Assembly (NCBI GenBank): GCA_020725645.1
Contig: DYEQ01000034.1
Location: forward strand, 43,474 to 107,473
Source: Candidatus Fermentithermobacillaceae bacterium
GTDB lineage: Bacteria; Bacillota; Sulfobacillia; Fermentithermobacillales; DUSS01
Length of the DNA: 64,000 nt
Reading direction: 5' to 3'
Shown: positions 16,102 through 28,369 of the stretch, in pieces
Layout of the letters: each line of letters begins with the position of its first letter
Position numbering within the stretch: position 1 is the first letter of the stretch
The notes under the pieces: model-generated
Seen by the model: only the letters and a program-made list of their open reading frames with translations
Told to the model about the DNA's origin: nothing
Databases searched by the model: none
Made by a program: the position numbers and the translations under genes

Positions 16102-16824
16102 TCAGGTTTCCCTGAGCAGGGGAATCCTGCCCTCTTTCTCATCGGAAAGCATTTCGATATAGACTTTCCTCAGCGCCTGAAAGTCTTCGAGCATAGGCTT
16201 TTTCTTGTTTTCATCCCGCAAGACAGCTGCAGGATGGTAGGTTACGAGATACTTACGGGAGTCCTTCGTCCACCACCTGCCCCTGTCCCGGGTGACGCGG
16301 ATCGAGGGATCGACCAGCGTCTGGGCGGAAAGAGCGCCCAGACACACCACAACCCTCGGGTTTATTATGCGTATTTGGGCCTTCAGGTGTGGAAAGCAAG
16401 CGACCACTTCATCGGGAAGGGGCAGCCGGTTTTCGGGGGGTCTGCACTTAACGATGTTGGCGATAAAGACGCTGTCCCTCTGGAAACCAGCGGATCTGAG
16501 CATCGCATCGAGGAAGCGCCCAGCTTTACCCACAAAGGGCCTACCCATCTCATCTTCGGTGGCACCCGGACCTTCCCCCACGAGCATGACGTGGGCCTGG
16601 GGATTGCCCTCACCGAAAACCACCCCCCGGGCCCCCTCCCTCAGCCGGCAGTCACGGCAAAGTGTGACTTTCTCCCTGAGGACTTCGAGGTCGTCCAGAC
16701 CTTCCCAAGCGTTTTCCCTGCAAGGGTGAGTTTCAGCGTGAAAAAGCGTAGGTTCGCTTCCGGGGGCGAACCCTTCTTCGGAGAAGAGCGGTACGAGAAA
16801 GGGAGATTTTCGTCCCTGCTTCAT
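16102..16824 (-). CDS. Family 4 uracil-DNA glycosylase (4Fe-4S)
   Basis: This removes uracil from DNA, an iron-sulfur glycosylase type common in thermophiles. The protein has 240 residues. Four cysteines (C56, C59, C127, C143) fit the 4Fe-4S ligand pattern. Motif A is GEGPGATEDEMGRPFVGKAG and motif B contains YHPAAVLR. About 45 N-terminal residues precede the usual domain start. It is coupled by four bases to the DUF483-like gene upstream and is followed by tsaE. Confidence 0.93.
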   Translation of the reverse strand: MKQGRKSPFLVPLFSEEGFAPGSEPTLFHAETHPCRENAWEGLDDLEVLREKVTLCRDCRLREGARGVVFGEGNPQAHVMLVGEGPGATEDEMGRPFVGKAGRFLDAMLRSAGFQRDSVFIANIVKCRPPENRLPLPDEVVACFPHLKAQIRIINPRVVVCLGALSAQTLVDPSIRVTRDRGRWWTKDSRKYLVTYHPAAVLRDENKKKPMLEDFQALRKVYIEMLSDEKEGRIPLLRET

Positions 16825-17831
16825 CCCTGGCCCGCCTCCCCGTGGTCCTCGTCCCCCCGTGCGGTCCCGTCGTAGCTCCTCTGGTCCTGCTTCGTCGATT
16901 GCACTCGCGTTCTCTCAAGTTCCTGGGCTCGTTGTCTGGCCACGTCAGGATACTTGAGTACGAAGGAGACGTTTTCCTGCACACGTTTTTCGTACAGTGT
17001 CGGGAGTTGGGAGTCTATCTGCCCGAGCTCATGCATGAGCTTCTTTCCGAGGGCGGAAGCTTCCTCACACCAGGGAGTGCAAGGGAGAAAATCCCTGACG
17101 AAATAGGCGAAAACGTCGGGTTTCTCGTTTTCCCCCATCTCCTTGAGCTGATTGGACGCCCGCTCTTCCGGGCTGAGTATCCGGGACTTCCTGTCGAAAA
17201 CGTACCGCTCGACGCAGCACGAAGGGTACCCCAGGAGTTTGCCCAGCGCTCGCACAAACTCGGGATGGAACTGCTCGGGAAAGGCCATCTCCACAGGCGG
17301 GACTCCTTGAGGAGCTCTTCTCGACGCCTCGTAACGCAGGTCTTTTCTCAGGTCCTGAAGCGCATCCAGGCTCGAAGAAATGTCGGATGACTTAAACAGA
17401 AAGATCTCGCGAATGGTGGGCCTTGACTGGAGCTGGCGATTCTTCAGCCCGAGCTTGCCGGCCCAAGACATGAAGCTATCGTAAGACGGGGAACTTTTGA
17501 CCACTTCCTCGTAAATATCCGATAGCAGGTTAGCCTTGTACCGTGCTTCGGCCGCAGGCGACCTTTTCAAGAGTTTTCTCGCCTTGCGGGATAAGTAATC
17601 GCCTATCGAGTCGCCGGGCACCCACTTCCCCTGAATCTTTTGACGAAACCTCTCATCGATGGTGGCACCCAGTATAGATGCATCCGGCAGGTCATATGGA
17701 AATACCATCATCGAAGCTTGCCGCACTCCGAGAACGACTGCGAGGTAGTCCTCGATCTTCGTTCCCACCGGGATCAGGGGCTCTCTCATGAAATCCGCGA
17801 TCGTGTCCCTCTGCAAGGAAGCCACCCCCAT
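16821..17831 (-). CDS. DUF483-like cysteine-containing protein of unknown function
   Basis: The protein has 336 residues and no function I recognise. The centre contains GYPSCCVERYVF (near residue 205) and DFLPCTPWCEEASALGKK (near residue 248); the pairing of a YPxCC motif with a PCxxxC motif is reminiscent of DUF483, a family mainly annotated in archaea. Four cysteines in this arrangement suggest a metal or iron-sulfur site. The C-terminal 30 residues are Arg/Gln/Asp-rich and probably disordered. The start (ATG 17831) has a weak ribosome site. It is the first gene of the operon that continues with the uracil-DNA glycosylase (four-base overlap) and tsaE. Confidence 0.5.
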   Translation of the reverse strand: MGVASLQRDTIADFMREPLIPVGTKIEDYLAVVLGVRQASMMVFPYDLPDASILGATIDERFRQKIQGKWVPGDSIGDYLSRKARKLLKRSPAAEARYKANLLSDIYEEVVKSSPSYDSFMSWAGKLGLKNRQLQSRPTIREIFLFKSSDISSSLDALQDLRKDLRYEASRRAPQGVPPVEMAFPEQFHPEFVRALGKLLGYPSCCVERYVFDRKSRILSPEERASNQLKEMGENEKPDVFAYFVRDFLPCTPWCEEASALGKKLMHELGQIDSQLPTLYEKRVQENVSFVLKYPDVARQRAQELERTRVQSTKQDQRSYDGTARGDEDHGEAGQG

Positions 17832-18001: not shown

Positions 18002-19123
18002 CTACTCTTCGATGATTTCGACGTTGGCCCGAGGTATCGTGACAACCGTCCCGTCCTCCAGCTTCGCGCGGAGGATTCGCACCTTAGCTTCGGTTTCTAT
18101 GACCTGAAGCTCCGGCGGAAGGTCCACTACCACGGCCAGCTTTCCGAAATAGGGCTGCCTGATGATCCGCACAGGTGTACCGGGGACGAGCCCGACGGAA
18201 AGATCCTGAGCTCCGAGGCTCCTCTTGGGTTTGTATCCGGGCACGACCACCTCCGGCCTCATGACGCCGGCTCTTATTTGCGTCGCGCCGTTTATCGAAG
18301 CTTTCATTCCCGAGAGATCCTTGAGAAGCCCGAAGGTCCTGTCGGCCATGCGCATTTTGCCGAATCCTTCCGTGACGATCACCGTTACCGGCACGTCTTC
18401 GTGACCGGTGATGGCCACGCCTATGTCGTGCCCGAGGTAAGCGATAAGGTCTGTGTCGATGATCCCGCCGGCAACGACCCCTACCGCGCCTACCTCCGCA
18501 GCCCTTTTGATGGCCCCAGCTGTCACAAGCGAACCACCCACGAGGATCTTTCCCTTGTGTTCCGGGCCAATGCTCTTGGCGTCCAAAACGTCATCGGGGT
18601 TCGACGCGAGGGCGGCGATTTGTCCTGTGGTCTCCCCGCCCACGCCGAAAATCCCCTGAATGAACGCACCTTCTGTCTTCACAACCACCCCTTCCCGGGG
18701 TAGGACGGATTCAACGGTTCCCTCGATGTAACCCGTCACTTCGATGGGAATGGGATCCTCCCTCAGTGTAACCTGACCTGTAACGGTTGATATCATCTCC
18801 AGGGTGCCATCGACGGGAGACTCTACCGTCTTGCGTACGAGCCCGAAAAAGGCCTTATATTCCGCAATGACCTCGCCCTTCTTGACCCGGTCCCCCTCGT
18901 TTTTGACCATGTACCACTGTATATCGCCGGGCTCGACCGCGAGCAGGTTGGCAATGCTAAGGGCTTGCGGATTACCGGGGATTTTCGTTCGGGCCACGAT
19001 GGTGTCGGGTGACACCGGGTCCCCTTCGGCAACCAGGACTTCGCCGGGAATGGGAAGGCGCCTGGTTTTACGAATTATCGCTTTCTCGGTCACTTTTAGA
19101 CCAGGAGTATACGCATGTGCCAT
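18002..19123 (-). CDS. Barrel-sandwich/KOW-like partner of MutL-family ATPase, module 1 (unknown function)
   Basis: The protein has 373 residues and no known function. The N-terminal half alternates short beta-rich segments typical of barrel-sandwich hybrid (biotinyl/lipoyl-like) folds (IPGEVLVAEGDPV, EGDRVKKGEVIAEY, ESPVDGTLEMI). No MK motif for lipoyl or biotin attachment is seen. A middle alpha/beta region contains GKILVGGSLVTAGAIKRA and ITGHEDVPVTVIVTEGFGKM. The C-terminus is KOW-like (VRIIRQPYFGKLA ... VTIPRANVEII). It is paralogous to 21628-22986; both end with the same TEAKV ... PRxNVEI block. The ATG lies 9 bases after AAGGAGGG, 15 bases behind the module 1 ATPase gene, and each paralog follows its own ATPase, so the pair very likely works together. 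Confidence 0.6.
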   Translation of the reverse strand: MAHAYTPGLKVTEKAIIRKTRRLPIPGEVLVAEGDPVSPDTIVARTKIPGNPQALSIANLLAVEPGDIQWYMVKNEGDRVKKGEVIAEYKAFFGLVRKTVESPVDGTLEMISTVTGQVTLREDPIPIEVTGYIEGTVESVLPREGVVVKTEGAFIQGIFGVGGETTGQIAALASNPDDVLDAKSIGPEHKGKILVGGSLVTAGAIKRAAEVGAVGVVAGGIIDTDLIAYLGHDIGVAITGHEDVPVTVIVTEGFGKMRMADRTFGLLKDLSGMKASINGATQIRAGVMRPEVVVPGYKPKRSLGAQDLSVGLVPGTPVRIIRQPYFGKLAVVVDLPPELQVIETEAKVRILRAKLEDGTVVTIPRANVEIIEE

Positions 19124-19138
19124 TTCAGCCTTCCCTCC

Positions 19139-21001
19139 TTAACTCGCCCTGGCGTACTTGCCAAGAGCTTCTTCTGGATACATGTCCACAGACTTGAACC
19201 ACTCGAGGAGCTTCGCTCGTCTTTCCTTGTCGTTCTCAGGCAAGCTGAGCGGCCTGCCACGGCAATCGATCAGCACCCCGACTACGCCGCCTGTGAGATC
19301 CGTCTCGACGGTATGACCGTTCCCCTTGCCCACGTCGAACTGCCTGGACGGGTGGACTTCCGCTTTTACTTTTTCGTCCACGCCGAGGGGAATTCGCTTT
19401 ATGGCACCGAAGGGCACTTGATGAACTTCTTCCTGGCCATTTTCTCTCTCGATCTTCACGGTGACGCACGGGTCGCCCGGCTTTACCCCGCCCGAAGGAC
19501 CCTTGGGGGATATCGAGGTCCCTAGTTTAATGAGGCAGTCTCTGTCGAACACCTGCATCGAAGCTTTGGGATGGATCGTCGAAAGAATCCCCAGCTGCGG
19601 CATCATGAATATCGAGTCCACAGCTAGCATCGTCATGCCTTCAGGTTGGAACGCGTCCAGGAGCATCATCGCAGCTTGCACCCGGCGAGGAGCGTGAGAT
19701 AGGACACCGCCCGATCCGATGAGCATGCCCAGTTGCATCATGTCGATGTAGCTCTGTCCGGTCCCCGTTTGCTCGAAAGTATCCGCGATAGTCCTCTCGA
19801 TTTTGATTCCTTTCAGGCCTACCGCCAGGGATTTATGGTGAATGAAGGCCAGCCGCAAAGCTTCCCTGGAAATGGCCTGCTCGATGACGAGCTCATCCAG
19901 CGTTTGAGGGATGGTCGTAGGCCGGATCATTTTATTCCGTATCCTGTTTCTGAGATCCGCCTCATCTATGGCAAAGGGGATCCACCTCATGATGTTCTTG
20001 ATCCCGGCCTCCAGCAGCACGTTGCAGATGGAGTAGCTCATCCCGAGGTTTGCCGACACGGTCCTGTTGAAATACTCGCCGAACACCGAGAACACGTCCG
20101 TCGTGGCGCCGCCGATGTCCACACCGATAACGCTAGTGTCGTACTCCCTGGCAGCCGTCTGCATGGCAAGCCCGACTGCGCCGGGAGTGGGCATGATGGG
20201 AACGGGTGTCCACTGCATGAGCTTGTTATATCCCGGCGCCTGGGCCATGACGTGCTCCATGAACAGGTTGTGAATTTCCTCCCTCGCAGGACCGAGGACC
20301 TCTTTCTCCAGGACTGGTCTCAAGTTGTCTACGACCCGGAGATCTGTTTTCTCGCCCAGGACATTTCGTACGTGGACCCTGGCGTCTTTGTTTCCCGCAT
20401 AAATGACGGGGAGTTTGAACCCCGTCCCCAACCTCGGCTTGGGCTCTGCGGCAGCTATGAGCTCAGCTATCTGGGCGACGTGGGTGATGGTACCCCCGTC
20501 AACCCCTCCTGATAGGAGAATCATGTCCGGCCGCAGGTTTCGGATGCGATTGATTTTCTCGTGAGGTTTTCTGCCGTCATCCACGGCGATGACGTCCATG
20601 ACGATCGCACCGGCGCCCAGGGCTGCCCGGGTCGCCGACTCGGCCGTCATCGTTTTCACGACCCCCGCCACCATCATTTGGAGGCCGCCGCCCGCCGACG
20701 AGGTGGACATGTAAATGTCCACACCCGAGCCGTCCTTTTGCCTCGGAGTGATGACGCCCTGGTCGTTCAACAGTTTTCTCCCCGTGAGCTCTTCCACCTC
20801 ACGGATGGCGTTCCTGGCGCCCATCGTGACGTCTTCGAACGGAGCTTCAACCGTAGTCGGAGCTTCGCCTCTGACGATCAGTCTGTACTCGTCTCCGACT
20901 TTCTCGATGAGGATGGCTTTGGTCGTGGTGGAACCGCAGTCCGTCGCCAGGATCGAGTTGATCTCTCCGTGAAGCTGGAAGCCCGGCTTTTCGTTGGCCA
21001 C
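19139..21001 (-). CDS. MutL/GlmL-family ASKHA ATPase-like protein, module 1
   Basis: This 620-residue protein belongs to the family named for MutL/GlmL, the accessory protein encoded with glutamate mutase, not the mismatch-repair MutL. Phosphate-binding loop 1 is D21-C-G-S-T-T-T-K28 and loop 2 is D295-I-G-G-A-T-T-D-V303, as in actin/Hsp70-fold ATPases. RGEAPTTVEAP, STSSAGGGLQMMVAG and MPTPGAVG are further conserved blocks. It is longer than typical GlmL (about 460 residues) through a C-terminal extension. No mutase, cobalamin or amino-acid fermentation genes lie nearby, so reactivation of a mutase is unlikely to be its job here. The GTG start follows GGAGGG. Confidence 0.8.
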   Translation of the reverse strand: MANEKPGFQLHGEINSILATDCGSTTTKAILIEKVGDEYRLIVRGEAPTTVEAPFEDVTMGARNAIREVEELTGRKLLNDQGVITPRQKDGSGVDIYMSTSSAGGGLQMMVAGVVKTMTAESATRAALGAGAIVMDVIAVDDGRKPHEKINRIRNLRPDMILLSGGVDGGTITHVAQIAELIAAAEPKPRLGTGFKLPVIYAGNKDARVHVRNVLGEKTDLRVVDNLRPVLEKEVLGPAREEIHNLFMEHVMAQAPGYNKLMQWTPVPIMPTPGAVGLAMQTAAREYDTSVIGVDIGGATTDVFSVFGEYFNRTVSANLGMSYSICNVLLEAGIKNIMRWIPFAIDEADLRNRIRNKMIRPTTIPQTLDELVIEQAISREALRLAFIHHKSLAVGLKGIKIERTIADTFEQTGTGQSYIDMMQLGMLIGSGGVLSHAPRRVQAAMMLLDAFQPEGMTMLAVDSIFMMPQLGILSTIHPKASMQVFDRDCLIKLGTSISPKGPSGGVKPGDPCVTVKIERENGQEEVHQVPFGAIKRIPLGVDEKVKAEVHPSRQFDVGKGNGHTVETDLTGGVVGVLIDCRGRPLSLPENDKERRAKLLEWFKSVDMYPEEALGKYARAS

Positions 21002-21130
21002 TGACGATTTCCCTCCCCCTCTGATACCGTTGGAAGATTATCTTTGAAAGCGAGAACGAATACGAAAAGAATACGACAACGATGCGGGAAAATCCTGTTC
21101 CGGAATTACCGGTCGGAAAAAAAGATATCA

Positions 21131-21547
21131 TCACCGCTTCTCCTCGCCGGTTCCGCGCTGCGCATGTTCCCGCATGCGCCGGGCTTCTTCCATCATCCGC
21201 CGGCGCTTCTCCTTCTCCTGCTTCCGCAGCTCCTTTGCTTTCCGCTCCTCCTCCTGCTCTTCCAGGGCCATCGCTTCCAACCTCTGTATGAGGAGTTCCA
21301 CGTTCTTCCTATCCTCGAAAAAGTAGGCGTAGTCGTCAAAGGTGTTGAAGAACGCCCCGATTATCGGCGCAAAAAAGTGCATGGCCTGTGAACCCAGGTA
21401 TGAGACGGGCTTATTCATTTCCAGAAAGAAGATGGCCGGGACGATCATGCCGAACTGCTTCACTCGTTTTGCGATCGCCTCGATCAGCTCGTCCCTCCGC
21501 TTTTCGTCAATGGGCTGAGGGAACTCAGGTTTAATGAGCCTGAACAT
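21131..21547 (-). CDS. Small protein with hydrophobic segment and long C-terminal coiled coil
   Basis: A 138-residue protein with no recognised family. After a charged N-terminus, residues about 33-67 are hydrophobic with a conserved-looking FFLEMNKPVSYLGSQ stretch, suggesting one or two membrane or membrane-associated helices. Residues about 82-125 are almost entirely Glu/Lys/Arg/Ala and should form a long coiled coil. I prefer the ATG at 21547 behind GGGGGTGG; a GTG nine bases upstream is possible. It lies between the two MutL-type modules, after a strong intergenic hairpin and 129 bases before module 1, so it probably belongs to the same system. Confidence 0.6.
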   Translation of the reverse strand: MFRLIKPEFPQPIDEKRRDELIEAIAKRVKQFGMIVPAIFFLEMNKPVSYLGSQAMHFFAPIIGAFFNTFDDYAYFFEDRKNVELLIQRLEAMALEEQEEERKAKELRKQEKEKRRRMMEEARRMREHAQRGTGEEKR

Positions 21548-21587
21548 CGGTACCACCCCCTTCTCTCCGGTTTACTGGCCAACGCCA

Positions 21588-21619
21588 AAGCGCGGGGCGT
21601 TGTAATACGCCCCGCGCTT
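21588..21619 (-). terminator. Strong intergenic hairpin after module 2
   Basis: A perfect 13-bp stem (AAGCGCGGGGCGT with its complement, loop TGTAAT) begins 8 bases after the stop of the module 2 partner gene. On the minus strand only three T residues follow, so it could be a partial terminator or an RNA-processing and stability element that sets different levels of the upstream and downstream parts of this operon. Module 1 has equivalent hairpins after its partner gene. Confidence 0.65.
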
Positions 21620-21627
21620 GGACCCGT

Positions 21628-22986
21628 TCAAAAGATCTCCACGTTGGGCCTGGGTACGACTACCGACTCGCCCGAACTCAGCAGGACCCTCACCGTCGGC
21701 ACCTTAGCTTCGGTTTCGATGAGCTGCGGCTGTTTGATGATCTCCTGGATCGTTCCGATGGCGCCGAAATAAGGCTCGTTGATGAGCCTTACGCGCATGC
21801 CCACCTTTAGATCCTCGTCCACGACCGCCATCTGTTTGATTTCCCCGTCCCAATCGGGGAAACTCACGATGACTTCCGGACGGATTGCGCCGGCACGGAT
21901 TTGAGTGGCGCCGTTCATCGAAACGGTGTATCCTTCGAGTTCCTTCAGAAGCTCCCACACTTCCCTCCGCATGGACAGCTGGCCGAAGCCCTCCATGAGA
22001 ATCACCGTGATATTCACATCTTCCTGGCCGGTTATCCCCACGCCCAGTTTCACGCCGAGCGACTGGGTCAAATTGAAGTAGTTTACAGTTCCGGTGATGA
22101 CGCCTTTCACCCCGATGTCCAGCGCCCGGGCTAAAGCTTCATTGGTGGCAAACGAACCACCGACGATGATTTTCCCGGCCACGTCATCCGGGATCATATC
22201 GGGGGCCAGTATTTCATCGGGCCCTTTGGTGAGAACCCTGAGCTCACCATGGGTTTCCCTACCGAGCCCGAAAATGCCGTTCACCTTAACACCCGGGGTT
22301 TCTACGACGCAGCCTCTATCCGGAATGATTTCGACTACCTTCCCCTGGATGTACGCCGGCACTATTACTTCCTTAAACGGCCTGGATATGGTGACCTTTC
22401 CCGTCTTCGTGTCGATGTGAGAAACGACACCCGAAACAGGCGCCACCGCGGTCTTGGTGAAAAAGGCCTGGGACTCGCCTTTTTTGGCGATCATTTGGCC
22501 TTTTTTAACTTCCTGCCCCACTTGCCTGATCATGTACTTGGGAAGGTCCTCGGGCCTGCAACCGAGCTCAAAAGCGAGGTCAAAAGTAACCGGCGGGTCT
22601 TCCTTTCTGAACTCTTCCCGGATGGTCACCCGTCCGGAACGACCGGATATGTCCTCAACGGTCCCGTCCGTGGGTGAAGTTATTTCCTTCCGGCCGTAAA
22701 GGCCACGCTCCGTCCTGGCTATGACGTCTTGCGTCCTGACCCTATCTCCGACCTTCACGAGCATGGCTGCGGGAAGTTCCTCGGGTTCGATGCCGAGCAG
22801 CCTGGCCGCGGGGATCACCCAGGGAATGCCGGGGCGAACGGCCAGCCGGGCGACGGGATCGTCCGGTTCCACCATTTGCCCCTCTTTAACCAGCACCTCG
22901 CCAGGAAGCGGCAGCTTCCTGGTTTTCCTGATAAGGGTGATATTATCTCGAATCCTAGCTGAGAATTCTGCCGAAGAGACCGCCAC
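21628..22986 (-). CDS. Barrel-sandwich/KOW-like partner of MutL-family ATPase, module 2 (unknown function)
   Basis: Paralog of the 18002-19123 product, 452 residues from the GTG at 22986, which lies 7 bases after GGGAGGG. The same order is seen: IRKTRKLPLPGEVLV, two barrel-sandwich-like segments (GDRVRTQDVIART; GQEVKKGQMIAKK), the middle block GKIIVGGSFATNEALARA and ITGQEDVNITVILMEGFG, then a KOW-like end (LINEPYFGAIG ... VVPRPNVEIF). It contains one more barrel-sandwich-like repeat than module 1, which explains the extra 80 residues. The start overlaps the end of the module 2 ATPase gene by 32 bases. No lipoyl-lysine motif is seen. Confidence 0.6.
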   Translation of the reverse strand: MAVSSAEFSARIRDNITLIRKTRKLPLPGEVLVKEGQMVEPDDPVARLAVRPGIPWVIPAARLLGIEPEELPAAMLVKVGDRVRTQDVIARTERGLYGRKEITSPTDGTVEDISGRSGRVTIREEFRKEDPPVTFDLAFELGCRPEDLPKYMIRQVGQEVKKGQMIAKKGESQAFFTKTAVAPVSGVVSHIDTKTGKVTISRPFKEVIVPAYIQGKVVEIIPDRGCVVETPGVKVNGIFGLGRETHGELRVLTKGPDEILAPDMIPDDVAGKIIVGGSFATNEALARALDIGVKGVITGTVNYFNLTQSLGVKLGVGITGQEDVNITVILMEGFGQLSMRREVWELLKELEGYTVSMNGATQIRAGAIRPEVIVSFPDWDGEIKQMAVVDEDLKVGMRVRLINEPYFGAIGTIQEIIKQPQLIETEAKVPTVRVLLSSGESVVVPRPNVEIF

Positions 22987-24859
22987 GTTTCTTCCCTCCC
23001 TGGACCTCCGCGACTTTGACGGGGAATTCGTTTTGGAACCGGAGAATTGCATCCACCGGGTAGGCGTTCATAGCTTGAATCCATGAGGTGAGAGCTTTGA
23101 CTCTTTCCCTCGGGTCCTCAGGTATTTCGATGGGACGCCCGCGCCCGTCGAATATGATACCCACAAGTCCTCCGTGGAGGCGCGTTTCAAAGGAGTGGCC
23201 TCTACCCGCCCCCACGTCTACTGCCCCGGCCGGATGGATCTTGCAAACCGCTTCCTGTCCGACGCCAAGCGGGATGCGCCGGAGCTCACCGGCGATTATC
23301 TTTTCCTCAACCGTGCTTCCATCCGGGAACGTGATCTTGACCGTCGCCATGGGGGAGCCACGCCTGACCTGTCCCACGGGGCAAATGGCCGTCCCGAGAC
23401 GCACGAGACAGTCTTTATCGAACACCTCCGCCGCGATTTCCGGATACAAGGTCGAAAGGACACCCAGGTGAGGCATCATGAAGATGGAGTCTACGGCCAG
23501 TTGCGTAACCCCCTCGGGCTGGAAAGCGTCCAACAACATGAGGGCCGCCTGCTCCCTCCGGGGCGCGTGGGATAGAACTCCTCCCGAACCCACCAGCATG
23601 TCTAGCTTCATCATCTGGATTACTTCGCGGCCGGCAGCTTTCAGCATCTCCGTTCGGGCTCTCCACAGCATGGAGATTTCCTCTTTCTCCACCTTCCGCG
23701 CGAGGCTCTTGTGATGTTCAAAGGAGAGCCTCAAAGCTTCTCTGGCAAGGGCCTGCTCGAGAACAAGGTGGTAGAGAGTCTGCGGGATGGTAGTCGGGCG
23801 AACCATCTTATTAGCTATCCAGTCGGATATTTTAGCTTCATCCATCCCGAAGGGTATCCACCGCAGGATATTCTGAAAGCCCGCTTCCTCCAGCACATTG
23901 CATATGGAGTAGCTCATCCCAAGGTTCGCCGATACCGTTCGCGTAAATGTATCCTCAAAACTGGAGAACACGTCGGTTGTGGCACCGCCGATATCCACAC
24001 CTACGATGTTCGCCTTGTACTGTTCCGCCATCAGGCTGATGATTTTCCCAACCGCACCCGGCGTCGGCATGATCGTCGTGTCAACCCATTGCATGAGCTC
24101 GCCGTAACCGGGTGCCTGGGCCATCACGTGGTTCATGAAAATCTCGTGGATAGCTTCCCTGGCCGGCCCGAGATTCTCCACGTCATGCCTGGGCCGGAGG
24201 TTCTCCACCAGGTGGACGTCCATGTCGTTTCCGCAGACGGCCTGGACGATATCCTGAGCGTCAACGTTTCCGGCGTATATCAGCGGCAGCTTGTAAGTAG
24301 CGCCGAAGCGCGGTTGCGGGTTGGCCTGCTTTACGATTTCCGCTATCGCGGCGATGTAGGCGACCGACCCTCCGTCCACCCCGCCGGACATGAGTATTAT
24401 GTCCGGTCGAAGCTCCGTGATCCTCGTAATCTGTTCCGACTGGGTTCGACCGTCGTCTACGGCGATCACGTCCAGTACCACGGCGCCGGCACCCAGCGCT
24501 GCCCTGTTGGCAGAACTCGCGCTGATGCTCTTGACGAGCCCCGCCACCATCATCTGCAGACCGCCACCGGCCGACGAGGTGGAAACGTAATAGTCAACTC
24601 CCCTGTTGCCTTGTTTCGGCCTGACCAGGTGACCCGTGTCGTCGAGGATGGGGCGGTCGACTAGCTCTTCGACCCGCCTCACCGCCTTCCTCACCCCGAT
24701 CATCACGTTTTCCCAGGGCGCTTCCACGGTCGTCGGCATCTCGCCTCTGGTTACGAGCCGGTACTCGTCTCCTCGCCTTTCTATGAGGATAGCTTTAGTC
24801 GTGGTGGAACCCACGTCCGTTGCGAGGATGGACTCAACTGGCTTGCCTCGATCTCCCAT
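22955..24859 (-). CDS. MutL/GlmL-family ASKHA ATPase-like protein, module 2
   Basis: This 634-residue paralog of the 19139-21001 product has loop 1 D15-V-G-S-T-T-T-K22 and a second loop DIGGATTDV. It shares long blocks with module 1, such as STSSAGGGLQMMVAG, ANLGMSYSICNVL, GSGGVLSHAPRR and VDSIFMMP. The C-terminal tail is basic (GGKKRGGLFGRILS). The ATG start follows GAGGAGGT by 6 bases. It overlaps its partner gene by 32 bases, indicating coupled translation and probably a complex. Retention of two full-length, motif-intact copies in one operon suggests a hetero-oligomer rather than redundancy. Confidence 0.8.
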   Translation of the reverse strand: MGDRGKPVESILATDVGSTTTKAILIERRGDEYRLVTRGEMPTTVEAPWENVMIGVRKAVRRVEELVDRPILDDTGHLVRPKQGNRGVDYYVSTSSAGGGLQMMVAGLVKSISASSANRAALGAGAVVLDVIAVDDGRTQSEQITRITELRPDIILMSGGVDGGSVAYIAAIAEIVKQANPQPRFGATYKLPLIYAGNVDAQDIVQAVCGNDMDVHLVENLRPRHDVENLGPAREAIHEIFMNHVMAQAPGYGELMQWVDTTIMPTPGAVGKIISLMAEQYKANIVGVDIGGATTDVFSSFEDTFTRTVSANLGMSYSICNVLEEAGFQNILRWIPFGMDEAKISDWIANKMVRPTTIPQTLYHLVLEQALAREALRLSFEHHKSLARKVEKEEISMLWRARTEMLKAAGREVIQMMKLDMLVGSGGVLSHAPRREQAALMLLDAFQPEGVTQLAVDSIFMMPHLGVLSTLYPEIAAEVFDKDCLVRLGTAICPVGQVRRGSPMATVKITFPDGSTVEEKIIAGELRRIPLGVGQEAVCKIHPAGAVDVGAGRGHSFETRLHGGLVGIIFDGRGRPIEIPEDPRERVKALTSWIQAMNAYPVDAILRFQNEFPVKVAEVQGGKKRGGLFGRILS

Positions 24860-24921
24860 CCGACTACCTCCTCACCCCTGCCTTCTGTTAACGACCATAT
24901 ACCCGGCCCTCGTGGCGATGG

Positions 24922-24943
24922 GGACCGGCACGGGTCCCGGTCC
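24922..24943 (-). terminator. Short hairpin between two-TM gene and module 2 ATPase gene
   Basis: Seven-base arms GGACCGG (24922-24928) and CCGGTCC (24937-24943) lie in the 98-base gap. There is no T tract, so this is at most a weak attenuating or stabilising structure, and transcription probably continues into the MutL-type genes. Confidence 0.3.
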
Positions 24944-24957
24944 TTTGACCGGCCCGC

Positions 24958-25677
24958 TTAATCCGGAGACGACTCTCCAGGGGGGTTCTTTTGCCTTAGC
25001 CTGCGAACCCTCGAAATCGCGCCGAGGAGTCCGCCTCTGGAACTTACCTCGGCCGTTTGCGGTCGCCCTGAAAGAGCTTCCTTGGCTGGTCTCAATTTGG
25101 ACGAAACGATCCTTAAGATCTCATCCTTATGCTCAAGCTTTTCGTCGTAGTAAAGGAAAATCCCCTCGCGCATTCGTCCCGTTATGGTCCTCGGGTCGTG
25201 CATCAGCATTATCCCGTCGGGATATTCGTGGTAGCAGAAGAGCTCATTCCACTGTTTCGTGTTCGAGGCCAGATATGTTCTAAAGCTTACTGTAGCATCT
25301 TTGAGTTCGTATTTCATTGGAAATATATAGGGGCCTATCCGGTTTAAGACGAGTATAGCTATTAGTATCGTGAACACCCATTGAGGGACGGCCCAGTAAG
25401 CTAGAGCTACCATGCCGATCAAAGAGGATACCACCAGTACGGATTTTAGAGGATTCCGCGGAAGCAGCCACACGCGCCAACTCAACAGGATTTCGTCTTT
25501 TGCATCAACCTGGTCGACGGCCGCCTGACACGCTTTTCTTCCGCTCTCATCGGGAGCTTTTTCTGTTTCCCGTGGTGCTTCTAGGTCCTCCCGGCGGGTA
25601 CCCGCACCCCGGAGATAAGCTGGTCTCCGCGAAACGTTCCTTGACCGGCCTTCGCTCGAACTCTCTTTTTGCCGCAT
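24958..25677 (-). CDS. Two-TM membrane protein, possibly PH-like, heading the MutL-type operon
   Basis: A 239-residue protein starting at ATG 25677 after GGGGAGGAAGG; a GTG 39 bases upstream is less likely. A charged N-terminus of about 65 residues precedes two membrane helices (SVLVVSSLIGMVALAYWAV and WVFTILIAILVLNRIG). A soluble domain then begins MKYELKDATVSFRTYL ... IMLMHDPRTITGRMREGIFLYY, which looks like a PH-type or YcxB-like beta sandwich. The end is basic. I do not recognise a specific family. It lies directly upstream of the module 2 ATPase on the same strand and could be its membrane anchor; this is inference from position. Confidence 0.5.
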   Translation of the reverse strand: MRQKESSSEGRSRNVSRRPAYLRGAGTRREDLEAPRETEKAPDESGRKACQAAVDQVDAKDEILLSWRVWLLPRNPLKSVLVVSSLIGMVALAYWAVPQWVFTILIAILVLNRIGPYIFPMKYELKDATVSFRTYLASNTKQWNELFCYHEYPDGIMLMHDPRTITGRMREGIFLYYDEKLEHKDEILRIVSSKLRPAKEALSGRPQTAEVSSRGGLLGAISRVRRLRQKNPPGESSPD

Positions 25678-25800: not shown

Positions 25801-26925
25801 TCATAAGTCTCCGGCGTGTGGGTTCCGCACTTTCCTGCGGTATTTCTCGAGGATGGCGAGGACCTCCGCCACAGGTAAAGCTTCTCTCACGTTTCCGTCC
25901 CGACCCACCATGGTCTCGGCCCGGAAGAGAGCGTTTAAAACCGCTTCTTCCGTTGCTTCGGAGGCCGATCGAAACACGGAGGAGAAGCCCGGAGAATCAT
26001 CCCGAACGACGCTCAGAGTGACAAAGCCCCGCTGACGATGGGGTATCCGGTACGCCGTGGAAAACGCCAGCACGAAATCCCCGCTGGAATTCGAAAAGGT
26101 TGATCCTACCCGGGCCAGCCCGGCGGTACACCGTCTGGCCACCCTCCCGAGTTGCCGCGAAGAAAGAGGTGCGTCCGTAGCTACGATGACTATGACAGAC
26201 CCGGCCGGCGCATTTCCCCGCACCTCGGTAGAGATCTCCCGGCCCACCGGTACCCCTGCTATCGTCAAGTCCTCTTTAGAGCCGAAGTTGGCCAGTACCA
26301 GGATTCCCAGGGTCCTCCCCTCAAGTTCCCCTTCCAGGGCTCTCGAAGCTGTTCCGATTCCGCCCTTGAAACCCAGACACGACATGCCCGTACCCGCTCC
26401 GACGTTGCCCTCGGGCACGGGACCCCCCGACGCCGACCGCAAAGCTTCGAGGACGTGCTCGGGTTTCACGTGCCTTCCCCGGATATCGTTGAGGAACCCG
26501 TCGTTACACTCGAGCACCACGGGGTTTACCGTGCCCGTGCCGACCCCGATATCGGGGTTTTCTTCCAACATGTATCCACACAGAGCGTCCCAGGCGGTCC
26601 CTACGCTTAAAGTGTTGGTGAGGACGATGGGGGTTTCGATTACACCGAGCTCCATTATCTGAGCCAGTCCCGTAGCTTTGCCGAAACCGTTTATCACGAA
26701 GACGGCGGCTGGTACTTTATCCTCGAATACGTTATCCCGGTGAGGGAGGATTGCAGTAACGCCCGTTCTGACCGGACCCTTACCCGGGATGAGAACTCCC
26801 TCGCCCCGGACCAGCGTGACGTGCCCTACTGCGACACCAGGCACATCGGTAATAGCGTTCAGCGGACCGGGACACATCTTCCCGAGTACTAGCCCTATAT
26901 CCCTCGCCCGAGGCCTTCCGGTCAC
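25801..26925 (-). CDS. P1 (DmpA/S58) family aminopeptidase-esterase
   Basis: The protein has 374 residues with the family's hallmark segments: ITDVPGVAVGHVTL near the N-terminus, ECNDGFLNDIRG, NVGAGTGMSCLGFKGGIGTASR around the autoprocessing and catalytic region, and VIVATDAPLSSRQL. P1 enzymes are self-cleaving N-terminal nucleophile hydrolases that act on N-terminal residues, D-amino acid esters or beta-peptides; the exact substrate cannot be read here. It overlaps the upstream amidotransferase-like gene by four bases, suggesting a joint role in small-peptide or amino-acid-derivative breakdown. Confidence 0.88.
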   Translation of the reverse strand: MTGRPRARDIGLVLGKMCPGPLNAITDVPGVAVGHVTLVRGEGVLIPGKGPVRTGVTAILPHRDNVFEDKVPAAVFVINGFGKATGLAQIMELGVIETPIVLTNTLSVGTAWDALCGYMLEENPDIGVGTGTVNPVVLECNDGFLNDIRGRHVKPEHVLEALRSASGGPVPEGNVGAGTGMSCLGFKGGIGTASRALEGELEGRTLGILVLANFGSKEDLTIAGVPVGREISTEVRGNAPAGSVIVIVATDAPLSSRQLGRVARRCTAGLARVGSTFSNSSGDFVLAFSTAYRIPHRQRGFVTLSVVRDDSPGFSSVFRSASEATEEAVLNALFRAETMVGRDGNVREALPVAEVLAILEKYRRKVRNPHAGDL

Positions 26926-27623
26926 GCCTTTTTCGCCGCCTTTAGCAGAGCCTCAAAAGGTCTTAAGAACAGCTTGTCCTTCCGCCACATACATTCGGGG
27001 TGAAACTGGAGGCATAGGCAAAAGTTCCCCGACTTAGACTCCACAGCTTCGACCACCCCGTCGAGGGCGCGCCCGCTGATTTTGAGGCCGTCTCCCGGCG
27101 TTCTTACGCATTGATGGTGAAATGAGTTCACAACGATCTGTCGCTGTCCGAACACCTCCAGCACCAGTGATTCCTCGTCCAAAATGACCTTATGAGTGCC
27201 ATACCACCTGGGCGCCTCCTGATAATGCTTCATAGCGCCACCCACCTGAGAGGGTATGTCTTGAACGAGCGTGCCGCCGGCGGCGACCGCCACGACCTGG
27301 GCGCCTCTACATATCCCCAGTACCGGGGTTCCGCGTGCCAGAGCTTCCCGAGCCAACGGGATTTCCAGGGCATCTCTGGAGGGGCTCACTCTACCCATCT
27401 TTGGATGAGGTCTTTCATCGTAAAACGCCGGGTCGATATCGACTCCGCCTGTGAACACCAGGCCTTCCACGGACGAAAGGACGGCACCGATGTCTTCGAT
27501 ATTAGGAGGGATTAAAAGGGGTATTCCCCCCGCTTTCAAAATGGCATCGCTGTAATCCAGGGAAAGCCTGGCTTCTCCGTTTTCCTCGTCTACGCTCGAG
27601 GTGATACCGATCAACGGTCGCAT
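26922..27623 (-). CDS. Class I glutamine amidotransferase-like hydrolase (PuuD-type)
   Basis: This 233-residue protein belongs to the gamma-glutamyl-GABA hydrolase family. The nucleophile elbow is GIC105RGAQ and the His-Glu pair is in LQFHPECMW near residue 210. FTGGVDIDPAFY is typical of PuuD-like proteins. Such enzymes cleave gamma-glutamyl amides; the natural substrate could be a gamma-glutamyl polyamine or another gamma-glutamyl compound. No other polyamine genes are nearby. The overlap with the P1 peptidase gene points to a shared pathway. Confidence 0.85.
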   Translation of the reverse strand: MRPLIGITSSVDEENGEARLSLDYSDAILKAGGIPLLIPPNIEDIGAVLSSVEGLVFTGGVDIDPAFYDERPHPKMGRVSPSRDALEIPLAREALARGTPVLGICRGAQVVAVAAGGTLVQDIPSQVGGAMKHYQEAPRWYGTHKVILDEESLVLEVFGQRQIVVNSFHHQCVRTPGDGLKISGRALDGVVEAVESKSGNFCLCLQFHPECMWRKDKLFLRPFEALLKAAKKA

Positions 27624-27704: not shown

Positions 27705-28052
27705 CTAGATAGGCTTGAGGCCGACGGAAATGGCTAGAGCCTCGTCCACCTTCGCCATGATCTCCTCATCCAGCTTCGATACGTGCCGCTTCAGCCTTCG
27801 CTTGTCAATGGTCCTTATTTGCTCCAGAAGGATAACGGAGTTTTTCTCGAGGCCGGAAAGGTGAGCCGGGATTTCAACGTGGGTCGGGAGTCTTGCCTTG
27901 TCTATTTGAGAGGTGATGGCCGAAACGATCGTGGTCGGGCTGTACCTATTTCCGATATCGTTTTGAATGATGAGCACGGGCCTAAACCCGCCCTGCTCAG
28001 ACCCGATGACCGGCGAGAGATCGGCGTAAAATATATCGCCTCGCGAAGGCAT
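27705..28052 (-). CDS. mazF: Type II toxin MazF/NdoA endoribonuclease
   Basis: MazF is a sequence-specific mRNA interferase neutralised by the antitoxin encoded upstream. The protein has 115 residues with [31 protein letters not shown] and the VSAITSQ segment, all characteristic of the Bacillus NdoA/EndoA branch. The ATG at 28052 shares one base with the antitoxin stop; an in-frame GTG one codon earlier is equally possible. This pair is usually chromosomal and stable in Bacillota, near acpS (and often alr), as here. Confidence 0.95.
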
Positions 28053-28369
28053 CACCGACCGTTCCCGTCCCCTTCCCCAACGTCGCCAGTGGGCTCCGCA
28101 GGTGTCCTGCGAGTAAGTTCTGCGGTAGCAAGCTCGTCCATGGCAAGGCGACTCATCTCTTCGGCCAACAGCACGTTCAACTCGCCCATTTCTTGATATC
28201 CCAGTTTCATTTGTTCCCTGAGTTTTATACGTTTCAACTCATCTAGATATCGTACGCACGCTTCCCTGATCAGTTCGGACCTGCGTCCGGAAATCCCGGA
28301 AGCTAGGAGGTCGAGATCTTCCAGCACATCCTCGGGTAAGCCCACCACGACTCGCTTCATTTTCGACAC
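28052..28369 (-). CDS. mazE: Ribbon-helix-helix antitoxin MazE/NdoAI-like
   Basis: A 105-residue ribbon-helix-helix protein. The N-terminal [13 protein letters not shown] strand (here [17 protein letters not shown]) and [14 protein letters not shown] form the DNA-binding dimer; the acidic C-terminus would block the MazF active site. Bacillus antitoxins are about 93 residues; this one has an extra Gly/Asp-rich tail. The start is GTG 28369 or the ATG three codons later. It lies 37 bases downstream of nnr. Confidence 0.88.

Follow-up and report, generated by a model that had tools for sequence, protein, structure and literature searches.

Long MutL-type ATPases and their partner proteins as a possible shared engine of DUF6754 membrane units

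Introduction

ASKHA ATPases comprise kinases, Hsp70s, actins and enzyme activators, and none is known to us to have a firmly established role in powering a membrane transporter. Barrel-sandwich domains are known to serve for docking in the Rnf and Nqr complexes, and in group II energy-coupling factor (ECF) transporters a shared energising module serves several units. MutL/GlmL is presented in one report (PMC4682846) as a chaperone that reactivates glutamate mutase. Here we analyse a cluster of six genes in a stretch of 64,000 nucleotides (hereafter the window) from a Candidatus Fermentithermobacillaceae bacterium (contig DYEQ01000034.1; genome G000, 2.1 Mb in 111 contigs, 90.6% complete), where two long ATPases of the same Pfam family, MutL (PF13941), are each followed by a partner protein. 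Relatives of this pair, found in bacteria and archaea, are tied by gene order and co-occurrence to a four-gene membrane unit encoding a DUF6754 protein. A search of the open-licence literature, with most subscription journals and bioRxiv outside its scope, found no paper on DUF6754 and none describing such a system.

Results

The ATPases are a long subfamily of MutL

Both window ATPases (A and B, 59% identical) match the full length of the Pfam MutL profile, and both keep what we take to be the phosphate-1, phosphate-2 and adenosine motifs, in agreement with a previous sequence-only reading of the window, which had seen both phosphate loops intact. The same reading had judged these ATPases to be about 160 residues longer than usual, which is roughly right, since the long copies from the fetched loci described below (n = 75, some cut by contig ends) have 514-644 aa, with a median of 616, against open frames of mostly about 455-490 aa for the canonical MutL copies of 199 genomes of the phylum. 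ATPases A and B miss the equivalog cut-offs of GlmL (215.6 and 224.6 against 475) and Or-4 (200.7 and 220.3 against 600), and also score below the glmL_fam subfamily cut-off. Judged by sequence, they are a long subfamily of MutL, distinct from the mutase-linked GlmL/Or-4 proteins.

The 199 genomes were surveyed with profiles of the partner, DUF6754 and the long ATPase. Partner matches occurred in 20 of them, and five with E values from 1.8e-4 to 7e-4 were set aside, leaving 15 genomes with strong matches. Long ATPases were chosen by eye from open frame and score, leaving out a copy in two pieces (G068:C52, frame of 554, without a partner match), a partial copy (G109:C82) and the split copy of G009. 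All 30 long copies so defined have a partner match within 1.5 kb (that adjoining G063:C30 being a 43-residue piece with a stop), against none of the 15 canonical copies. Among the 15 genomes with a partner, 3 have a strong match to glutamate mutase E and 11 have one to ornithine aminomutase alpha, not counting four weak glutamate mutase matches (G000, G009, G136 and G166; E 9.4e-7 to 9.9e-4) and one weak ornithine mutase match (G129; E 1.3e-4). All 14 sit 150-2255 bp from a canonical MutL gene, and no long ATPase lies within 24 kb of any of them on the same contig, lysine aminomutase not having been searched for. Moreover, four of the 15 genomes (G030, G072, G109 and G145) have the system with neither of the two mutase families searched and with no full-length canonical MutL.

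A role as strict GlmL-type mutase accessory proteins would fit the Pfam match and the product names derived from it. Given that mutases pair with canonical MutL and not with the long copies, that the scores stay below the three cut-offs, and that over a quarter of the pair-bearing genomes (4/15) lack both mutase families, this role was rejected as extremely improbable, and the pair does not always accompany a mutase. The absence of mutases from the 64 kb, claimed by the earlier reading together with that of B12 and amino-acid fermentation genes, agrees with our searches, which covered the two mutase families and neither B12 nor fermentation genes.

The source genome has four MutL genes. Two lie in the window; a third, again long (590 aa), is found next to a partner of its own at a distance of about 26 kb on the same contig; and the fourth, of canonical type, adjoins ornithine aminomutase genes elsewhere in the genome. 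The long ATPase-partner pairs thus number three, beside a single genuine mutase helper. The third pair (L006 11170-14016, contig C108 of G000) adjoins two FtsX-type permease genes and an ATP-binding cassette (ABC) ATPase gene, an arrangement also present in L021, as judged by gene lengths. ABC transporter genes recur near some other loci (Dpp-like in L036 and L043), an uncontrolled observation. Two open frames, one of 1245 and one of 1232 aa, also contain a MutL domain and are apparently fusions (G080:C156:22377-23924 and G111:C59:3818-5365).

The partner protein

Partners A and B share 45% identity, B being a longer form with extra barrel-sandwich-like sequence, and 2587 homologues of partner B were found among 8000 candidates scored. 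In Pfam, NCBIfam and further sequence searches neither partner has a full-length match to any characterised family, as the earlier reading had supposed when it left them without an assigned role; the full-length rnfC and nqrA models are far from being reached (26 against 245.95 bits for partner B and 12.8 against 321.05 bits for partner A, respectively). The description of the partners as barrel-sandwich/KOW-like stands as regards the RnfC_N (barrel-sandwich) domain of partner B, which passes the Pfam cut-off in two stretches (2.6e-11), and as regards the folds of the partner A model. By sequence it does not hold for partner A, where RnfC_N stays below the cut-off (2.4e-4), nor for KOW, which is weak (0.27) and becomes clear in the predicted fold. 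The partner A model has three predicted domains: barrel-sandwich (residues about 49-124), swivel (about 129-297) and KOW (about 310-373).

The KOW domain, typical of NusG/Spt5, and a fold resembling RraA could suggest a factor acting on RNA or transcription. Both swivel and KOW folds are found in many contexts, RraA is ranked close to pyruvate kinase and rifampin phosphotransferase among the fold matches of partner A, and the genes linked to the pair encode membrane proteins, so that such a factor seems highly improbable.

Gene order links the pair to a membrane unit

A partner-profile scan of the genome collection gave 286 confirmed relatives, and the best 78 loci, many of them cut by contig ends, were kept for gene-order maps. 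These loci come from Bacillota, Latescibacterota, Eisenbacteria, WOR-3, Coatesbacteria, Zixibacteria, Elusimicrobia, Armatimonadetes, Planctomycetes, Poribacteria, Riflebacteria, Fermentibacteria and Gemmatimonadetes, as well as from archaea. The recurring cluster consists of the small protein, the long ATPase and the partner, followed by four genes of families c4 (DUF6754), c5, c6 and c8. The long ATPase lies directly upstream of the partner in 63 of the 78 loci, the small-protein family is present in 53, and the two-transmembrane (two-TM) family heads the cluster in 33. A gene of c4, c6 or c8 is present in 32 loci and all four membrane genes in 26, and three Bacillota loci (L013, L015 and L018) hold the entire set in one cluster, including the two-TM gene and both ATPase-partner pairs. 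The small protein has no significant Pfam match, and the two-TM protein has none in Pfam or NCBIfam. As a separate observation, a TldD/PmbA metallopeptidase pair directly precedes the cluster of small protein, ATPase, partner and unit in a Latescibacterota locus (L048 3938-6729), and a PmbA-type gene was also found near the cluster in L039 and L054.

The multi-TM proteins of the unit are c5, with 5-6 predicted TM segments in 34 of 37 sequences, and c8, whose counts vary with a simple predictor. In c6, 33 of 34 sequences have 2 TM segments, and in 33 of 34 the domain, which has a predicted Rossmann-like fold, is placed outside by charge. Many DUF6754 proteins carry an N-terminal Fn3 domain, and 7,902 DUF6754 homologues were found among 7,999 candidates scored. 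Comparisons with hhalign detected no relation of DUF6754 to c6 (probability 0.7 per cent) or to the partner (0.1 per cent). No enzyme family was recognised in the unit, and DUF6754 and c6 have no sequence match to an enzyme of solved structure. At L105 7562-8500, a gene for a ClpP-like SDH-type serine proteinase (3.8e-126) flanks an orphan unit, which has a TldD/PmbA-type pair on its other flank.

Co-occurrence and numbers of pairs and units

Partner, DUF6754 and long ATPase were found in 15 (strong matches), 16 and 14 of the 199 genomes, respectively, with all three in 14, and DUF6754 was absent from 14 named control genomes. DUF6754 was then sought in 43 partner-bearing genomes, namely those of 41 of the 46 loci in which c4, c6 and c8 are all missing (L007, L012, L021, L035 and L066 were left out) plus L022 and L024, where some are present. 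This set overlaps with the 199 genomes, since by coordinates G109 is G224 and G145 is G236. Nearly all of the 43 have no membrane gene beside the partner, and in 35 of the 43 DUF6754 was found elsewhere in the genome. Likewise, a long ATPase covering at least 490 of 606 positions was found elsewhere in 12 of the 15 genomes in which the partner has no adjoining ATPase; of the other three, one carries the gene in pieces, another a C-terminal piece only and the last none. It is very probable that ATPases, partners and membrane unit work as one system.

The source genome has three DUF6754 matches in addition to its long ATPase-partner pairs, and these correspond to three membrane units on other contigs, complete in C70 and C100 and cut by the contig end in C77. 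The complete chromosome of Ca. Fermentithermobacillus carboniphilus (G199) has 14 DUF6754 matches, and all 12 units listed and fetched are complete, in the order c4-c5-c6-c8; the partner occurs there at five loci at least among the matches listed (one of 10 being unlisted). In G207, 27 DUF6754 matches stand against a partner at six or more loci among the matches listed. The excess of units over ATPase-partner pairs in several genomes suggests that the pairs are probably shared among units. Outside Bacillota, the 22 genomes fetched with one partner match have from 0 to 6 DUF6754 matches each.

The duplication is old

Trees were obtained by a quick method for 53 ATPases and their 53 adjoining partners, drawn from every tandem or third-module pair (32) and from 21 of the 41 single pairs, and their main groups agree. 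Module A falls together with the copies that occur singly in other Bacillota (20 rows; support 97 and 96), module B forms one clade (16 rows; 100 and 100), in which its ATPase joins the upstream copies of other tandem loci, and module C, the third pair, forms a separate clade (2 rows; 100 and 100). The two trees disagree on module C, which in the partner tree joins B (with a long-branch warning), and on the positions of some archaeal and Bacillota rows. The simplest reading is that ATPase and partner were duplicated jointly before the split of the lineages of the 15 tandem loci that share the duplication. A recent, unfixed duplication, which the sequence-only reading had named as fatal to its proposal, was consequently rejected, as both trees show the event in these 15 loci. 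The genomes with a single partner match outside Bacillota indicate that the two-module arrangement is an elaboration of Bacillota.

That reading had proposed a two-module, probably membrane-linked assembly. The tie to membrane proteins is borne out, whereas the assembly does not stand alone, as a third pair and the four-gene unit lie outside the window.

Features of the window cluster

The six genes were confirmed as open reading frames on one strand, the - strand, at the positions first reported, and in both pairs the partner directly follows the ATPase on the coding strand (Table 1). Their coding order is two-TM protein, ATPase B, partner B, small protein, ATPase A and partner A.

Table 1. 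Features of the six-gene cluster, in coding order (positions in the window)
Feature	Position	Strand	Basis
Two-TM protein, first gene of the cluster	24958..25677	-	open reading frame; two predicted TM segments
Long MutL-type ATPase B, 634 aa	22955..24859	-	Pfam MutL 1.5e-123
ATPase B, phosphate-1 motif DVGSTTTK	24794..24817	-	motif, name presumed
ATPase B, phosphate-2 motif GVDIGGATTD	23972..24001	-	motif, name presumed
ATPase B, adenosine motif GSGGVL	23573..23590	-	motif, name presumed
Partner B, 452 aa from ATG at 22986 (open frame to 23052)	21628..22986	-	RnfC_N 2.6e-11
Small protein, 138 aa, conserved core and charged, helical-looking tail	21131..21547	-	open reading frame
Long MutL-type ATPase A, 620 aa	19139..21001	-	Pfam MutL 1.6e-124
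ATPase A, phosphate-1 motif DCGSTTTK	20918..20941	-	motif, name presumed
ATPase A, phosphate-2 motif GVDIGGATTD	20096..20125	-	motif, name presumed
ATPase A, adenosine motif GSGGVL	19700..19717	-	motif, name presumed
Partner A, 373 aa, three predicted domains	18002..19123	-	model with mean pLDDT (predicted local distance difference test) 88.8; fold matches

Directly 3' of the cluster lies a gene for a DUF483-containing protein (Pfam 7.6e-8; window 16821-17831), whose family is found in 15 loci, mostly of Bacillota. The cluster is preceded by peptidase S58 and peptidase C26 genes (window 25801-27623), conserved at the cluster in related Bacillota (14 and 15 loci), and a MazF-like toxin gene with a ribbon-helix-helix (RHH) antitoxin-like gene (window 27705-28369) is found nearby and recurs in related loci.

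Discussion

A possible mechanism

We infer a physical complex, ATP hydrolysis, its coupling to the membrane unit, transport and a cargo. The long ATPase and its partner would form a cytoplasmic engine that docks on the membrane unit, the barrel-sandwich domain of the partner binding the DUF6754 protein on its cytoplasmic face. Binding and hydrolysis of ATP in the ASKHA cleft would move the swivel domain of the partner, thereby opening or driving a route across the multi-TM proteins for the cargo, which the external domain of c6 would hold. In this way a few engines could be shared by several units that differ in specificity. That the system is a transporter is a plausible if tentative proposal, and the same caution applies to ASKHA ATPases as an engine shared by interchangeable membrane units, probably for transport. 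The narrower claim of a new class of primary active transporters, in which an ASKHA ATPase and a barrel-sandwich/swivel/KOW coupling subunit energise interchangeable four-protein DUF6754 units, is possible and rather doubtful.

Several observations weigh against this proposal. The predicted topology of DUF6754 over 36 sequences is divided (N-out 20, N-in 12, tie 4), so that it is unsettled and the docking face is a guess. The fold matches of c6 are unspecific, and its conserved residues suggest no known site. Partner and split ATPase occur in G009 without DUF6754, DUF6754 occurs without a partner in G019 (78% complete) and G095 (a partial match), and it was not found in 8 of the 43 partner-bearing genomes, whose completeness is not given. 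G063 shows the reverse ratio, with one DUF6754 and four long ATPases. The co-occurrence tests, like the Fisher values, ignore kinship among genomes.

A peptide cargo, too, was given little weight, to the detriment of the transport proposal. Around 12 units of G199 (76 flanking proteins), peptidase or amidohydrolase counts reach at least 13, against at least 3 in 12 control flanks (86 proteins; the first 12 fetched of 14 random positions; Fisher 0.007), this category having been picked after the data were seen, among the best 25 of 58-67 families per table. By region, the flanks with such families among those listed are at least 6/12 against at least 3/12 (P 0.40). M20 peptidases lie within 2.5 kb of 3 of the 12 units (P 0.02; P 0.06 at 4 kb), that of L101 not being among the best 25 families listed. 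The signal is post hoc and was not replicated for M20 peptidases in other genomes, where they lie within 4 kb of 2/7 units in G204, 0/8 in G205 and 1/27 in G207 (expected 0.53, 0.86 and 2.44). Ca. Fermentithermobacillus carboniphilus is described as fermenting peptides and amino acids and as having several peptide ABC importers (PMC10215811), which would make peptidases common in G199 anyway.

The strongest rival to the transport proposal is a GlmL-like reactivase or assembly chaperone, in which the ATPase-partner pair would load, repair or reactivate a membrane-bound enzyme made by the four-gene unit. The long ATPases do belong to the Pfam family of MutL, and a single engine shared by many units would also be in keeping with a chaperone. 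However, the unit yielded no recognisable enzyme, as reported above, and the constant one-to-one pairing of ATPase and partner would need explaining, so we regard this rival as conceivable and, on the whole, somewhat unlikely. In third place comes an envelope scaffold or polymer assembly, in which an actin-fold ATPase would organise a membrane complex with nothing being pumped. PilM, GspL, FtsA and MreB, of the same actin-like ATPase superfamily, organise membrane complexes, and the small and two-TM accessory genes, together with the Fn3 domain of many DUF6754 proteins, would suit such a role. The profile matches to pilM and MreB-like proteins are nevertheless negligible (0.08 and 0.032), and the many complete four-gene units per genome fit specificity better than one scaffold, which makes this role improbable.

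Comparison with known systems

For the set of eight families as a system, no described relative was found in the open-licence literature searched, the ATPase itself being a subfamily of a known family. This widespread system shares the Pfam name of its ATPase with mutase helpers whose mutases the long ATPases do not accompany. Once the parts that form the system are named, its function can be tested, and in genome annotation the long ATPases can be separated from true GlmL proteins. If the transport proposal is true, an ASKHA-powered transporter would be widespread in bacteria and archaea, concealed so far by a name taken from glutamate mutase.

With GlmL/MutL and Or-4, the helpers of glutamate mutase and ornithine aminomutase (PF13941, NF040745 and NF040744), the window ATPases share the Pfam family and the nucleotide motifs, whereas they are about 130-160 residues longer, with a C-terminal extension, and are accompanied not by a mutase but by the partner protein and the membrane unit. 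With RnfC and NqrA, peripheral subunits of the Rnf and Nqr redox pumps, the window partners have the barrel-sandwich domain in common, followed in the predicted partner model by swivel and KOW domains. The proposed DUF6754 transporter would resemble the group II ECF transporters in its way of working alone, with few energising modules and many units at separate loci, and the place of their ABC ATPases would be taken by an ASKHA ATPase.

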